Shown piece after piece: positions 1-10,582 of a stretch of 64,000 bases of DNA. The notes under the pieces are model-generated. The model did not search any database. It saw nothing but the letters and a program-made list of their open reading frames with translations, and was not told the DNA's origin. This DNA comes from an uncultured Armatimonadota bacterium (GTDB lineage: Bacteria; Armatimonadota; Fimbriimonadia; Fimbriimonadales; Fimbriimonadaceae). Each line of letters begins with the position of its first letter. Position 1 is the stretch's first letter. Where the stretch lies: NCBI GenBank assembly GCA_903927345.1, contig CAIYMO010000057.1, positions 1 to 64,000 on the forward strand, read 5' to 3'. Both the position numbers and the translations under genes were made by a program.

Positions 1-114
1 CATCGAACATATCCACCCATCTAGTCCGAATACGGAGACGAACGGGACTTCAACACATGGGATGATCCAAGACTTAACCAGCACAACACTCGGCCTTGGT
101 CACGTCAACGCTAA

Positions 115-143
115 AGAAGGTCCACCAACACGGTGGACCTTCT
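115..143. terminator. 12-bp perfect inverted repeat, terminator-like
   Basis: AGAAGGTCCACC and GGTGGACCTTCT are exact complements separated by AACAC. No T-run follows (TAATGT), so it may end transcription from the left or simply form a strong hairpin upstream of the WD40-caspase gene. The rest of positions 1-223 shows no convincing gene; one reading frame stays open from position 2 to 145 but runs through the hairpin and resembles nothing I know. Confidence 0.5.
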
Positions 144-223
144 AATGTATCAAGTAACACACTCATACTAGAAAACGTCCACTTCGCCACAGGGCCAAGA
201 TTTAAACAGACTGGAATTAGCCA

Positions 224-3200
224 ATGAAAATGTACAAGCTAGTCGCAATCACCCTACTTGCATGCATTACAAGCACATCAACGGGACAGAAACTTAGATT
301 GGTTCCACAAATTGGGCATTCTGATTTTGTAAAATCAGTCGCCTTCTCTCCAGATGGTAAGGTTTTGGCAAGTGGAAGTGGTGACAAAACCATCATCTGG
401 GATGTCACCACAGGCAGGGTACTCAGAACGCTAGCCAGCTCAGCAGATCACCAGATTAACTTCTCCCAAGATGGAAAAACACTTGTCGACATGAGTGTTG
501 GGGGTACCACCGTTTTTTGGGAAGTAGCAACGGGCAAAAGGATCAAAACTCTTGACGTGAGCTCGATTGCGATTTCCCAAAACCTATCGACTTTGGTGAG
601 TAATGACCTCTCCAGCAACACTATTGTTCTCTGGGACGGCGCCACCGGGAAAGAACTCAAAAGACTCAAGGGACACACTGCATCTATTGGACAGGCCTCG
701 TTTGCCCCTGGTGGGAAGGTGCTGATAACCGGAAGTAACGACAAAACAGTCAGACTCTGGGACGTCACCACAGGAAAATTACTCAAGACACTTGCGGGTC
801 ACACTGAAAGTATCTCATCCATTTCTGTTTCCCCAGATGGAAAGACCATTGCCAGCGGTAGTTTTGACAAAACCATCAAGCTCTGGGATCTTGACAGCGG
901 TAGGTTGCTAAAAAGCCTTGTGGCACATACGATGGGGGTCGCCAATCTTGAGTTCCACCCCAACGGAAGGTTCTTGGTAACCGAAGCATCTGGCGACCCA
1001 TCCACGTTTTGGGATGTTGCTAGTGGTCAACGACTCGGAACATTTAATGGGGATGGCAGTTGGATCAAATTCTCTCCGAACGGCAACTTTCTCGCTACCC
1101 AGAGTATGAACACTGAAGATTTCAAGTCCGTTGTCAAAATATGGGATCCACTTACTGGTAAATGCCTTCGGGTGCTTGAAAGTAAAGCAAACAATATCTA
1201 TGATCCCACTTTTTCTCCAGATGGGGATACTTTGCTCTTTGGTGGCTGGGACACGACGATCCAGCAGTGGAATTTGGCACCATGGCAGTTGAAAAAAACT
1301 CTCGCAGGGCATAAAGATGCCGTTATGTCCATTTCTCTATCTGGAGACGGAAAGACCCTGGCTAGTGCTACCGGAGGGTGGGACAAGGCAATCAGAATCT
1401 GGGATCTTTCCAGTGGTGAAGTGCGCAAAATTCTCCCCAAAAGTGGCAGTAGAGTCCTGCTATCACCAGACGGCATGGTTCTGGCAAATTCTTTCAAACT
1501 GGATAATCCATTTAACTCTGCTTGGAAGCTGTGGGATGTCAAAACTGGGCTGGAGATCAGAACCGTTGGTGAACAAACTCTAGATTGGTCATTAGCCTCC
1601 TTTTCTCCTGACAGTAAGACTCTGGCAATCTGGGGTGGCTACAAAGACAAAGCGATCAGGTTGTGGGATGTTGAGACAGGAAAACTACTGAAAACGCTTG
1701 AAAAACAACGATTCGAATTTTCTGCCAACTCTGTTGAGTTTTCACCAGATGGTCAGACGCTGGTCAGCGTGTACGATGACAGCGTCATCTTATGGGATGT
1801 TGCAAGCGGCAAAAAGCTTCGAGACCTTATGAGCCCGAGCTTAGACCTAAGTTCAATTAAACTCTTCAAGACCGACGGCATGGCATCAGCGTTTTCCCCA
1901 GATGGCAAAACTTTAGCTTGCGGGAGTTTTGGCAATACAATCAAGCTCTTTGACGTGACCACTGGTAAAGAGTTGACCAACTTTGTAGGTCACGGAGATG
2001 TAGTTGTATCCATCTCATTCTCCCCAGATGGTAAGACCATCGCCAGCGGAAGTTGGGATACAACCAGCAAGCTCTGGGATGTTGTATCTGGTCGCGAGTT
2101 ATGCTCTCTAGTTTCGTTCACAGATGGGACGTGGGCAGTAACAGATCCTGAGGGAAGGTTTGACGTGGCCTCCCTTGAGGATGAAGTGTGGCTTCACTGG
2201 GTAGCTCAGGATGCTCCATTCACACCTTTGCCGGTCACCGTCTTCATGCGGGATTACTATGAGCCAGGACTAATCTCAAAGGTTTGGAAGCGAGAGAAGC
2301 TAAAGCCTGTGAAGAACGTTTTAGATTTGAGCCGGGCAAGGCCAGAGGTCTCCATCGACAGCGTGAAGTCAGACGGGAGTAAGGCAACTGTGACGGTTTC
2401 TGTGACCAAGGCACAGCTTGAACTTGAGGGAGGACAATTCCAGCAGGGCTTCCCTCAAGACTTTAGACTCTCAAGAGATGGAAAGCTCGTTGCCAGCATC
2501 GAAGGACCGCTCGAGCTAGATGGTGCAGGAAAGTGGTCTCAGACTTTCACTGTCAACATTCCCCAAAACGGAGAGACAGATCTTGAGTTCAAAGCCTACT
2601 GCTTCAACCAAGACCGCGTGAAGAGCGATGACGCAAGGCAGCCTCTGAAAGTACAGCTTCCAAAGAAACAAGGCAAGGTATACATCATCTCCGCCGGTGT
2701 AGACCACTACGAGAGAACTGGCATGGACCTCATGTTTGCAGGCAACGATGCCAAGACCATGTCGGCTCAGCTTGCGGAAGCTTTCAAAGGAAAATACGCA
2801 GAAGTTGTCAGCGTTCCACTACTTGACGTGAAGAAGGAAGTCTTCAAAGCGGTGCTAGACAAACTCAGTGGGAAACAGATCTCCACCGAGATTCCTGGCG
2901 GTGAGAAGCTTGCAAGAACCACCACTGAAGACCTTGTCATCTTGAGCTGGTCTGGACACGGTCTGTCTAAGAGCGGAGGTGCCTTCTACCTACTTCCTAG
3001 CAACGTAAAGAACATTGCAAATACACAGGAGCAGGCGTTCTTAGATTCTTGCATCAGTACAGATGAACTGACTGAGTGGCTCAAAGATGTTGAGTGCGCT
3101 GACATGGCATTCATTGTCGATGCTTGTCACTCGGCGGCGGCGGTGCAGAGCGAAGAGTTTAAACCAGCTCCACTTGGAAACCGGGGTCTTGGACAACTTG

Positions 3201-3532
3201 CTTATGACAAGGGTATTCGGATTCTTGCCGCGACCCAAGCTGAGAACGTGGCACTTGAGAGCGGAGCGCTTGGAAATGGGCTCCTCACCTATGCGCTTCT
3301 GCACGACGGTATCCAGCAGAAAAAGGCGACCAGCTCACTCAAGGAGTGGCTCGCCTACGCGGTGGAACGAGTTCCACAGATCTACCAAGAGCTCAAGAAA
3401 GGAACGCTCAAGATGGCCAAAGGAGCCAGATCCTCCAATGCAGGAGCAAGTGGAACCGAACCATCCCTGCAACGACCAGCACTCTTTGATTTTACGAGAA
3501 GACCATCACCTGTACCATTCGTGAAAGCGTAA
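224..3532 (+). CDS. Secreted WD40-repeat protein with C-terminal caspase-like (C14) peptidase domain
   Basis: The 1102-residue protein starts with a signal-peptide-like segment (MKMYKLVAITLLACITSTST). Residues about 30-640 hold about 14 WD40 repeats, recognisable by SPDGK...ASGS and WDVTTGK-type strings, enough for two seven-bladed propellers. A linker of about 200 residues leads to a caspase-fold domain (about 815-1070) with catalytic His912 in SWSGHG and Cys968 in DACHS. In bacteria such WD40-caspase (orthocaspase) proteins are known, but their substrates are mostly unknown; the propellers probably bind partners. The signal peptide suggests an exported protein, which is inferred. GC content is visibly lower than in the genes after 4.1 kb, and an integrase remnant follows, so transfer is likely. 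The family call is firm, the role is open. Confidence 0.9.
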   Translation: MKMYKLVAITLLACITSTSTGQKLRLVPQIGHSDFVKSVAFSPDGKVLASGSGDKTIIWDVTTGRVLRTLASSADHQINFSQDGKTLVDMSVGGTTVFWEVATGKRIKTLDVSSIAISQNLSTLVSNDLSSNTIVLWDGATGKELKRLKGHTASIGQASFAPGGKVLITGSNDKTVRLWDVTTGKLLKTLAGHTESISSISVSPDGKTIASGSFDKTIKLWDLDSGRLLKSLVAHTMGVANLEFHPNGRFLVTEASGDPSTFWDVASGQRLGTFNGDGSWIKFSPNGNFLATQSMNTEDFKSVVKIWDPLTGKCLRVLESKANNIYDPTFSPDGDTLLFGGWDTTIQQWNLAPWQLKKTLAGHKDAVMSISLSGDGKTLASATGGWDKAIRIWDLSSGEVRKILPKSGSRVLLSPDGMVLANSFKLDNPFNSAWKLWDVKTGLEIRTVGEQTLDWSLASFSPDSKTLAIWGGYKDKAIRLWDVETGKLLKTLEKQRFEFSANSVEFSPDGQTLVSVYDDSVILWDVASGKKLRDLMSPSLDLSSIKLFKTDGMASAFSPDGKTLACGSFGNTIKLFDVTTGKELTNFVGHGDVVVSISFSPDGKTIASGSWDTTSKLWDVVSGRELCSLVSFTDGTWAVTDPEGRFDVASLEDEVWLHWVAQDAPFTPLPVTVFMRDYYEPGLISKVWKREKLKPVKNVLDLSRARPEVSIDSVKSDGSKATVTVSVTKAQLELEGGQFQQGFPQDFRLSRDGKLVASIEGPLELDGAGKWSQTFTVNIPQNGETDLEFKAYCFNQDRVKSDDARQPLKVQLPKKQGKVYIISAGVDHYERTGMDLMFAGNDAKTMSAQLAEAFKGKYAEVVSVPLLDVKKEVFKAVLDKLSGKQISTEIPGGEKLARTTTEDLVILSWSGHGLSKSGGAFYLLPSNVKNIANTQEQAFLDSCISTDELTEWLKDVECADMAFIVDACHSAAAVQSEEFKPAPLGNRGLGQLAYDKGIRILAATQAENVALESGALGNGLLTYALLHDGIQQKKATSSLKEWLAYAVERVPQIYQELKKGTLKMAKGARSSNAGASGTEPSLQRPALFDFTRRPSPVPFVKA

Positions 3533-3560
3533 ACGGGGGGTGAAGAGAGTGCGGAGCAAC

Positions 3561-3947
3561 CTACTGAGTTAGGGCTGACTGAAGCCTCTCGCCCACGGAT
3601 CGCATCTCGTCAGTCAGCACGTGTCCATAAAGGTCCGAGGTGAGGCCAATTTGGGAGTGCCCGAGGAAACGGCTTACTTGGTGAAGGTTGAGGCCATTCA
3701 TCATCATAAACGTAGCGGCCGAGTGACTGAGAGCGTGAATGCCGGTCTTTGGCAGTCCCGCCTGCTCCAAGGCTCTGTGGAGGTACTTGAGGGCCTTAAC
3801 GGCGAGGGCTTTCGTCTATGAACGAACCTGCTTGTACTTTGGACGACCGGATGGTGTGAAGCCAACTTGGATCTACGATATCCACGTGCCTCCGGGCTTG
3901 AAGATTCTCCCCAATCCCTTCTCTCGCCGTTGCCTCGTGTTGCTCAA
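3561..3947 (-). pseudogene. Tyrosine integrase remnant, internally deleted
   Basis: Reading from a TTG at 3947, one frame gives MSNTRQRREKGLGRIF, a typical integrase arm-binding N-terminus, then a TAG stop, then VGFTPSGRPKYKQVRS, a second TAG, and finally the C-terminal catalytic part with GIHALSHSAATF, RFLGHSQIG and DLYGHVL. Head and tail lie in the same frame but only about 129 codons remain where an integrase has 350-400, so the core-binding domain and the first catalytic Arg and Lys are gone. The expected HxLRH box reads HALSH, so its Arg is also lost. It lies next to a palindrome and a tRNA-like 3' end, as integrases usually do. A short product starting at TTG 3770 could be made but cannot be an active recombinase. 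Confidence 0.85.
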
Positions 3948-3960
3948 TCATGCAGATCAT

Positions 3961-3982
3961 TTTGCAGTTTATAAACTGCAAA
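3961..3982. repeat. 22-nt perfect palindrome beside the integrase remnant
   Basis: Two 11-nt arms (TTTGCAGTTTA and its complement) join without a spacer. The palindrome lies between the integrase start and the tRNA-like sequence, where recombinase core or arm sites are expected. Its role is inferred from position only. Confidence 0.6.
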
Positions 3983-4012
3983 GGTCGTTGATGGATCATT
4001 TTGATTCAGAAA

Positions 4013-4042
4013 GCTTAGGTTCGAGTCCAGTCGGGCGACCCA
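4013..4042 (+). other. tRNA 3'-end-like sequence, candidate attachment site
   Basis: TTAGGTTCGAGTCCAG resembles a tRNA T-arm, and TCGGGCGACCCA follows where an acceptor 3' strand and CCA-like end would be. No matching 5' acceptor strand or D-arm is visible upstream, and the T-stem pairs poorly, so this is not a complete tRNA gene. Tyrosine integrases commonly use tRNA 3' ends as attB; with the integrase remnant alongside, this is probably an attL/attR scar marking the right edge of an island that includes the WD40-caspase gene. Confidence 0.45.
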
Positions 4043-4096
4043 CTTTTTCCTTTTCTCGCGCCACTTTCCGTGCGTGGCTCATGCAGAATTGACTGC

Positions 4097-8810: not shown

Positions 8811-9590
8811 ATGCGGTATGCGTGTTGTTTTGTTGTTGGCTTGTTAAGTGCAGTTGCGGTCTCGAATCCGTTTGCAAAGGTTATGTCCGCGAATCAGCAG
8901 ATTCGCAATGTGGATATGGCTACACAAACGGAGCCGCTGTTGATGACCACCGGGCTGCCCTCCGAAAGCTTGGCGGTTTCCCCGGGCGGCACTTACTACC
9001 TTGCAGACCTGAGTGGAAATCTGTGGATGCCCACGACCAGTGGAGCGATTCCGGCAGGCTCCCTCGGGTTTGGCCAGGTCGGCGACCTTGACTGGGCGAA
9101 CAACGGACTTTGGGGATTCAGTAACGCGAATCAGTCCTTGTTCTTTTACGACCTCGGGCTTTCGTCGATTACCGCGTCCTATTCGATCCCGGCTCTATCT
9201 GCTCTCACAGTCACCGGTGTTGCTTACCGCCCGTCGGATTCCTCGATCTTCCTCAGCGCTCGGCAAGGGCTGAACAACGACTTCCTCTTCCAAGTTCCGT
9301 CGGCATCAACAACGGCGAATCTGATCGGATCGATGCCGATTGCAGACGCGTTCAGCTACGTTGCAGACATTGACTTCGACCCGACGGGGACTCTCTACGC
9401 TGTGTCGTTCTTCCACCGCGACTTTTACTCGGTTAATCCAACCTCGGGTGCGACGAGCTTTATCAGCGCTGGGCCCCACCGCGACGTTTTTGCAATGGCC
9501 CTGAACCCCTCGGTGGTTCCGGAGCCTGCGACGATCAGTGCTCTTGGCCTAGGACTGCTCGGCTACCTGCGTAAGCGCAAAAGCTCATAA
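8811..9590 (+). CDS. PEP-CTERM sorting-domain exported protein
   Basis: About 259 residues starting at ATG 8811 with a signal peptide (MRYACCFVVGLLSAVAVSNP). The C-terminus has the three-part PEP-CTERM signal: VVPEPATIS, a hydrophobic stretch (ALGLGLLGYL) and a basic tail RKRKSS. Exosortase systems recognise such tails and process the protein at the envelope. The body looks like a beta-propeller or lectin-like domain (SVNPTSGATSFI, DIDFDPTGTLYAVSF) without recognised catalytic residues. The gene converges with and overlaps the GH76 gene by about 28 nt. No exosortase is in the window. Confidence 0.85.
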   Translation: MRYACCFVVGLLSAVAVSNPFAKVMSANQQIRNVDMATQTEPLLMTTGLPSESLAVSPGGTYYLADLSGNLWMPTTSGAIPAGSLGFGQVGDLDWANNGLWGFSNANQSLFFYDLGLSSITASYSIPALSALTVTGVAYRPSDSSIFLSARQGLNNDFLFQVPSASTTANLIGSMPIADAFSYVADIDFDPTGTLYAVSFFHRDFYSVNPTSGATSFISAGPHRDVFAMALNPSVVPEPATISALGLGLLGYLRKRKSS

Positions 9591-10582
9591 ACCGCCAAGG
9601 CTCGGACGGCGGAGGCTTGGTGGAGGAGTTGATGTTTGCCAGTCGTCGGTTTGCCCCATCGAGTGCCAAAGAATCCTTCGGGGTCACGACCGGAGAGCAT
9701 TTTTGTGATGCACTGCTGCGCATCGAACTTTTTAAGGTCGAGGTTTTCGAAGAGGAGGTGAGCGAACTGGAGTTCGTCGTCAATGGTTCCGTCGGGCTTA
9801 ACCCACCGTTTCAAGCATGAGGTCTCAAGACGCTCGGCGTCCTTGGCATAGCTCGGCTCATGCGTGATGGCGGCAAGCTCTTTGGCTGTGCGGAGCATCA
9901 GGGCTGAGTTGTAACTCCACTTGGTCTTGCCAATCGTTCCGTTGAGCTGGATGTTGTCCCAGTAGAGGCCGTCGGGAGCCTGCAGAGTTTTCTTGGTCCA
10001 GTCGTAGAGAGCCTTGGCTTTGCTGAGCAGTTTTTGATCGCGGGTGTGCCTGAATACCGCAAGGCAAGCGGCGGCGGAAGGTCCGTTCGAGCACGTGTTC
10101 TTTGAGGTCTTTTCTCGCTCTTTCCAGTAGATCCCGCCCCCGAGCTTGTCGTCTTCTCCGCTCAGCACATAGGCGAGTGATTCTTGGGCTCGTTTCAACC
10201 ACTTTGGGTTTCCGGTGACATCGTAGCTTTCGACGAGCGCCATCACCATCCAGGCGTTGTCGTCGTAGTATCGATCTTGGTCGTTTTGAACATTGGGCTG
10301 GACGTCAAAGCCCGCAACCGGACCGATAGGATTCCAGTAAAGCATCGCCCTTTCGAGAGACTGTTCCAGCTTGGTTTTGTAGTTCGGATCGAGCTTTGTG
10401 ATGGCATTTTGAGCGGATATAAGGACGCCGATTCCCCAGTTGTAAACCGGGTGTTTCTCCGTTGTGGACTCGATGAAGAAGCCCGTTTTGGGGTCCATAA
10501 ACAACGTTTCCAGGCGGTTCATTTCGGCGCGGGCGTCGGAGGGAGAGATCATCAGAGAAGCGACGATGACAGCTGTCAACAT
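9563..10582 (-). CDS. Secreted GH76-family glycoside hydrolase (alpha-1,6-mannanase-like)
   Basis: About 339 residues starting at ATG 10582 with a signal peptide (MLTAVIVASLMISPSDA). The (alpha/alpha)6 toroid hallmarks are present: RYYDDNAWMV with the adjacent catalytic Asp pair of GH76, LGGGIYWKE, SNGPSAAACLA and TKWSYNSAL. GH76 enzymes cut alpha-1,6-mannan backbones; substrate here is inferred from family only. The chosen start lies just beyond the stop of the FGE gene, so the two are probably one operon. The 3' end overlaps the convergent PEP-CTERM gene. Confidence 0.82.
   Translation of the reverse strand: MLTAVIVASLMISPSDARAEMNRLETLFMDPKTGFFIESTTEKHPVYNWGIGVLISAQNAITKLDPNYKTKLEQSLERAMLYWNPIGPVAGFDVQPNVQNDQDRYYDDNAWMVMALVESYDVTGNPKWLKRAQESLAYVLSGEDDKLGGGIYWKEREKTSKNTCSNGPSAAACLAVFRHTRDQKLLSKAKALYDWTKKTLQAPDGLYWDNIQLNGTIGKTKWSYNSALMLRTAKELAAITHEPSYAKDAERLETSCLKRWVKPDGTIDDELQFAHLLFENLDLKKFDAQQCITKMLSGRDPEGFFGTRWGKPTTGKHQLLHQASAVRALAVYELLRLRR

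Follow-up and report, generated by a model that had tools for sequence, protein, structure and literature searches.

What is a large gene for a WD40-caspase doing at the very start of a bacterial contig, next to the debris of an integrase, and what did it arrive with? The stretch analysed here (the window) is the first 64 kb (64,000 nucleotides) of contig C57 in a 3.1 Mb draft genome of 57 contigs from an uncultured Armatimonadota bacterium, and position 1 of the window is the contig start. A first-pass annotation of the window described a secreted WD40-caspase at the edge of a decayed integrative element and raised a role in defence or cell death. Judged from its sequence setting, the gene is cargo of a degenerate, inactive integrative element at a tRNA-Arg(TCT) gene, and it has a second caspase gene as its divergent neighbor. 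The reading favoured here, held with moderate confidence, is that this cargo is an exported two-caspase module that would act in the cell envelope, most likely for use in biological conflict.

The WD40-caspase protein

The open reading frame (ORF) is intact and encodes the 1102-residue protein described at first, whose WD40 repeats match Pfam with an E-value of 2e-80; the number of ~14 blades is a strand count on a middling structural model (mean predicted local distance difference test, pLDDT, of 69). When residues 639–1102 were searched alone, Peptidase_C14 matched with 34.6 bits against a cut-off of 21.4. The catalytic dyad, His912 (codon 2957–2959) and Cys968 (codon 3125–3127), is invariant in all eight aligned full-length sequences, in agreement with the earlier description of it as intact. 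Structure prediction of the C-terminal region, which had been proposed as a check, returned a caspase fold: the C-terminal 481 residues were modelled with a predicted template modelling score (pTM) of 0.77, and the closest solved fold to the modelled caspase domain is that of MALT1 paracaspase (Z 18.4, root mean square deviation 2.7 over 193 residues, 17% identity), with caspase-7, legumain, and metacaspases near Z 17 (metacaspase 4, 17.0). By Peptidase_C14 profile, His-Cys dyad, and fold alike, the protein is a caspase homologue that looks catalytically intact. Sequence comparison with solved structures gave no relatives for the C-terminal half, and the EACC1-type caspase model of NCBIfam gave 41 bits, under its cut-off of 140.

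The earlier description of the protein as exported stands as far as a signal-like N-terminus is concerned (Kyte-Doolittle 3.0), and from this hydrophobic segment the WD40-caspase is predicted to be exported. Separately, the N-terminus resembles the start of an exported-looking WD40-only protein family (MNKxKLITILLLACIAGAALA) that is multicopy in the genus, with copies in G015 (L057 8473-10497 and L058 7117-8094) and on contig C17 of the window's own genome (L046 6703-7659).

Table 1. Positions of the features of the element and its surroundings. Coordinates are those of the window unless contig C40 is named.
Feature	Coordinates	Strand	Basis or detail
Overlap with right end of C40	1..29 = C40:17131-17159	.	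exact match
Exported-looking WD40-caspase gene, 1102 aa	224..3532	+	ORF, Pfam, conservation, N-terminus
Signal-peptide-like N-terminus, ~22 residues	224..289	+	Kyte-Doolittle peak 3.0 at residue 6; relatives' N-termini alike
WD40 region, residues 25-650, two propellers, ~14 blades (strand count on the middling model)	296..2173	+	Pfam and model
Beta-sandwich, residues ~708-794	2345..2605	+	structure models; weak Foldseek matches to SoxYZ chains
Caspase domain, residues ~810-1060	2651..3403	+	Pfam, conservation, fold match
Tyrosine integrase remnant	3561..3947	-	N-terminal part ~3789-3947, C-terminal part ~3561-3788, middle deleted
Palindrome TTTGCAGTTTATAAACTGCAAA	3961..3982	.	self-match
Right attachment (att) copy, tRNA-Arg(TCT) 3' end	4018..4045	+	sequence match
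Intact tRNA-Arg(TCT)	C40:11360-11435
Partial tRNA 3'-end copy	C40:13096-13133
Exported-looking WD40 gene, 324 aa	C40:13663-14637	+
669-aa caspase gene, exported-looking	C40:14823-16832	-

A degenerate element at tRNA-Arg(TCT)

The window starts at a contig end, and the 29-mer at its start, shared with the end of the 17,159-bp contig C40, occurs nowhere else in the genome with up to three mismatches allowed; C40 therefore supplies the left part of the element. The leftward extension that had been suggested, in search of a second att copy and cargo, recovered an intact tRNA-Arg, a partial copy of its 3' end, a WD40 gene, and a gene for a 669-aa caspase. Joined, the two contigs carry a 9.7 kb island of two tandem units, bounded by one intact tRNA and two partial copies that all share one orientation. 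The order is tRNA-Arg, a 1.7 kb unit, a repeat, the 324-aa WD40 protein, the 669-aa caspase (minus strand), the 1102-aa WD40-caspase (plus strand), the integrase remnant, the palindrome, a repeat, and a PhyH gene. The right unit of ~8.0 kb, between two tRNA 3'-end repeats, contains the WD40-caspase gene, and the two caspase genes are divergent with starts ~520 bp apart.

The tRNA-3'-end-like sequence noticed in the window is indeed a copy of the 3' end of the tRNA-Arg(TCT) on C40 (2 mismatches in 25 at 4018–4042). Matches to the 3'-end pattern cover 23 to 25 of 25 positions, and a reversed-pattern control gave zero matches in 3.1 Mb, on which ground a chance tRNA-like match was rejected.

The integrase remnant also reported earlier scores just above the Phage_integrase cut-off (27.3 versus 27.1 bits), its extent now corrected to reach ~3947. 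Comparison with four intact relatives, 65–70% identical to it over the C-terminal stretch, indicates that its N-terminus is fused to its C-terminus with the loss of ~255 codons, that it contains two in-frame stops, and that the Arg of the HxxR box is replaced by Ser. It is thus the remnant of a tyrosine integrase rather than a functional one, and by this measure the element is degenerate; excision and transfer are unlikely because the integrase is dead. The four intact integrases have the same geometry, with a partial tRNA 3' end just ahead of the integrase start (tRNA-Lys-like in three and tRNA-Asn-like in one, as read from the anticodon loop) and short TAAACTGC- or TAAACGGC-like repeats between the two. 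The palindrome, located where it had been noticed, is probably a remnant of integrase arm-type sites, because it holds one TAAACTGC/TAAACGGC-like motif on each strand.

A decayed integrative element, as first proposed, is accordingly borne out by the repeats and the dead integrase, with the correction that its left part lies on C40, beyond the window. The alternative that there is no element, the tRNA-like pieces having arisen by chance or the C40-C57 join being an assembly artefact, would draw on the 57-contig state of the draft, on a join of 29 bp only, and on a right flank that is rearranged relative to a congener. It is highly improbable in view of the uniqueness of the overlap, the number of tRNA matches set against an empty control, and a dead integrase placed exactly as in its intact relatives; moreover, the right repeat and the integrase both lie inside the window, independent of the join.

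Besides the integrase remnant, no mobility genes were recognised in the element. The first island unit (C40 11436-13104), which encodes a 221-aa membrane-like protein and a 180-aa protein, neither with a Pfam match, may be an additional, older element. In congener G018 (L129, G018:C1:1219000-1238500, at ~9150-9700) lies another decayed integrase, belonging to the family of the window's remnant and likewise with Ser for the HxxR Arg. Elsewhere, a WD40-caspase in G028 lies beside tRNA-Lys and tRNA-Val lies beside WD40 genes; no second att copy was found in the stretches read.

Foreign composition and unoccupied sites

The guanine-plus-cytosine content (GC) is 0.49–0.50 in both island units versus 0.55–0.56 in the flanks, and the WD40-caspase gene itself has a GC of 0.49, lower than the genes downstream as had been stated. 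Its GC at third codon positions (GC3) is 0.505, and the GC3 of the cargo genes ranges from 0.46 to 0.55, compared with 0.658 ± 0.057 for 42 downstream ORFs. Two congeners, G015 and G018, carry an identical tRNA with a syntenic left flank, no further repeat, and no cargo to its right, and by these features the tRNA is unoccupied in both. Of the empty site expected in relatives, then, the unoccupied tRNA was found, but rearrangement of the right flank in relatives prevents a clean empty site from being demonstrated at the right junction: the PhyH block of G015 lies on the same strand as the tRNA and 50 kb from it, with a rearrangement between them. Nor is the gene conserved across relatives: when the 18 genomes of the genus that are 90% complete or more were compared, only the window's own genome matched the WD40-caspase C-terminus strongly, and one other gave a distant match (E 7e-30). 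On the strength of this near-absence, vertical inheritance of the gene within the genus was rejected.

A recurrent pair of caspase genes

The 669-aa caspase matches Peptidase_C14 of Pfam with 26.1 bits and keeps the GHG and DSC motifs. By eye it seemed to have a DUF4384-like tail, which Pfam did not match at a threshold as loose as E 5. Between the divergent caspase genes lies a perfect 12-bp hairpin, agaaggtccacc-aacac-ggtggaccttct, at window 113–146, which may be a terminator or an operator.

Homologues of the same build as the 669-aa caspase lie close to WD40-caspases in G044 and G046, and one of the window protein's nearest relatives (43%) is the G044 WD40-caspase that adjoins such a caspase. 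Across the order, with the window's genome excluded, a caspase lies within 6 kb of a strong WD40-caspase in 21 of 27 loci from 10 genera, and in 15 of 20 once profile-seed loci are left out, counts in which several loci come from one genus and are hence not independent. Most partner caspases are open frames of ~320–350 codons, and in the pairs whose sequence was read both the partner caspases and the WD40-caspases have hydrophobic signal-like starts. On these counts, a WD40-caspase with a neighboring caspase is a recurrent two-gene module. Given that other bacteria have the pairing as well, the gene looks less like a lone oddity than like part of a moving protease system that acts in the envelope.

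Phylogenetic analysis of 17 C-termini groups the window's protein with two G044 copies and with sequences from Burkholderiaceae and Blastocatellia (100/100); the copies from its own family fall elsewhere in the tree. A profile of this clade found members in 3 of 291 genomes of the phylum, and fuller-length relatives occur on rhizobial and Sulfitobacter plasmids; such a patchy, cross-phylum clade is, as far as the tree and the profile go, the pattern of horizontal spread. On the Sulfitobacter plasmid the WD40-caspase is followed, one gene on, by a caspase of 722 aa, akin to the one of 669 aa (E 3e-6), and then by a CHAT-domain protein; four tandem WD40-caspases occur on a Blastocatellia contig. 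As a further observation, the conjugative Rhizobium plasmid pRLTp73_3 (L137 421-13023) carries consecutive genes for four caspase family proteins and a lysozyme; three of the four proteins are WD40-caspases related to that of the window.

This distribution bears on the possibility that the two proteins form an ordinary periplasmic or extracellular regulatory protease pair, serving surface-protein maturation, nutrient proteolysis, or development, which was moved by chance and has no use in conflict. The pairing as such is silent on purpose, and a sister clade, in which the caspase partner has ~300 aa, is found widely in several genera of the order, a stable pattern that would suit housekeeping. 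The window's own clade, however, is patchy and crosses phyla, and its relatives sit on conjugative plasmids beside more caspases, lysozyme, or a CHAT protein, so that an ordinary protease pair is possible but doubtful.

Cargo of related integrases

Among the genes beside the related integrases are ones for a type IIG restriction enzyme (E 2.5e-52), for an AAA ATPase resembling IetA (4e-15), and for a large AAA protein with a weak likeness to Avs1 (1e-7), as well as a set of vWA, PP2C, and kinase genes. As a PADLOC control, ten ordinary proteins of the window were searched and yielded one helicase with generic matches (best E 5e-11); because of this generic match, only the restriction enzyme counts as strong among the neighbors. 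The finding suggests that the related integrase lineage may carry conflict cargo.

Two of these loci are of interest in themselves. The G035:C5 element (L131 9820-18205) has an intact integrase together with a MotA/ZorA-like protein, two vWA proteins, a PP2C phosphatase, and a kinase, a set that has the look of a separate conflict system. At G010:C5 (L128 9583-15636) a 2017-aa AAA protein, weakly Avs1-like, adjoins an intact integrase of the same family.

The suggested role in defence gains only indirect support from the cargo of the related integrases, but one form of it, cytosolic anti-phage defence or abortive infection in which the WD40 region senses infection and the caspase kills the infected cell, is unlikely. 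Mobility, the restriction enzyme and other conflict-type genes beside related integrases, and weak matches to the PADLOC caspase model (E 5e-5 for the WD40-caspase and 1e-7 for its 669-aa partner) would fit such a role. It is disfavoured because hydrophobic, export-like N-termini are found on the WD40-caspase, on the WD40 protein, and on their relatives, and because Pfam and PADLOC searches of the element cargo recognised no NTPase, cyclase, TIR, or similar signal-making partner; nor was there any match in phage records.

A toxin-type exported effector, with the caspase domain itself acting as the toxin after delivery to other cells, would account for an exported-looking, mobile protein with a C-terminal caspase after repeats, and caspases acting as toxins or as releasing peptidases have been described (Tox-Caspase; PMC3482391). 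This reading is improbable nevertheless, since no immunity gene was recognised in the element, the best-scoring matches comprise only WD40 and caspase and no delivery domain (a plain signal-like N-terminus being possible), and the partner caspase would be left unexplained. An Imm22/DUF4284 immunity-like gene lies just left of the tRNA-Arg (C40 9842-10573), with no toxin recognised beside it; it is kept in congeners that lack the element and is thereby ruled out as a cognate immunity gene.

Proposed function

The reading favoured here, an exported two-caspase module carried by a degenerate element, can be put as follows. Both proteases would be exported and would act either in the periplasm or on the cell surface, where the propellers may bind a trigger or a partner and keep the caspase under control. 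Activation, which one caspase might bring about by cutting the other, would lead to cleavage of envelope proteins, and the outcome might be regulated lysis upon a breach of the envelope or damage to non-kin neighbors. Conflict is put forward as the likeliest use because the module is mobile cargo. The presence of three long open ORFs beside a dead integrase suggests that the cargo may have retained a useful function. In a more specific form, the pair would be a mobile exported caspase cascade, the WD40-sensor caspase and the second exported caspase acting as activator and effector for lysis or neighbor killing from the envelope side; we put this forward only tentatively.

Several observations weigh against the favoured reading. 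At six of the 27 loci the WD40-caspase lacks a caspase neighbor within 6 kb. Export is called from hydrophobic N-termini, and the signal of the 669-aa caspase is the weakest of them, 2.2 versus an internal maximum of 2.5. Another WD40-caspase clade, which is not patchy, is common in several genera and fits housekeeping too. Finally, use in conflict is deduced from mobility and from the neighbors of related integrases, which except for the restriction enzyme are weak or generic matches.

The best-understood bacterial caspases act inside the cell. If the cascade reading is true, this would be a bacterial caspase system distinct from the cytosolic ones linked to NTPases or cyclases. A recurrent, mobile pair of exported caspases, one of which bears a double WD40 propeller, would allow a concrete question to be tested: whether two-step caspase proteolysis takes place outside the cytoplasm, and for what purpose. 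Loci in Armatimonadota genomes, on a Burkholderiaceae contig, and on Rhizobium and Sulfitobacter plasmids provide material for it.

Comparison with known systems

The protein resembles the bacterial caspase homologues (orthocaspases and metacaspases, Peptidase_C14) surveyed in PMC3501461 in its caspase fold, His-Cys dyad, and WD40 repeats. In the part of that survey considered here, WD40 is the commonest companion domain of orthocaspases and metacaspases, and the authors report WD40-metacaspases, N-terminal helices as possible signal peptides, multi-caspase operons, and suspected horizontal transfer; they also discuss possible activity at the cell surface or on neighboring cells. The multi-caspase operons in this part are from other groups than the present one, and neither a conserved exported pair of caspase and WD40-caspase nor a tRNA-borne element is described in it. 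The literature searched, which did not extend to further subscription papers, yielded no description of the pair and its tRNA element. WD40-caspases, multi-caspase operons, and transfer are therefore known already, and the conserved exported pair with its tRNA element, not found in the papers searched, is apparently new.

Likeness to MALT1 paracaspase is in fold only; architecture and compartment differ, and the fold implies no common function. Polymorphic toxins (PMC3482391, where exported caspases are treated as processing peptidases or toxins) likewise include exported-looking proteins with repeats and a caspase domain, but here neither a separate toxin tip nor a delivery domain or immunity gene was recognised. 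The element shares with tRNA-targeting tyrosine-integrase elements an intact tRNA at one end, 3'-end repeats, an integrase beside the end repeat, foreign composition, and absence from relatives; it differs from them in having a dead integrase that lacks its middle part, no further recognised mobility genes, and two units in tandem. With the NTP-dependent caspase conflict systems of multicellular bacteria (PMC7159879) and with cytosolic caspase defence the module has in common a caspase effector with a beta-propeller and mobile or patchy genes. In those systems, however, the caspase has an NTPase or cyclase partner, which was not recognised here, and the proteins of the present module look exported.

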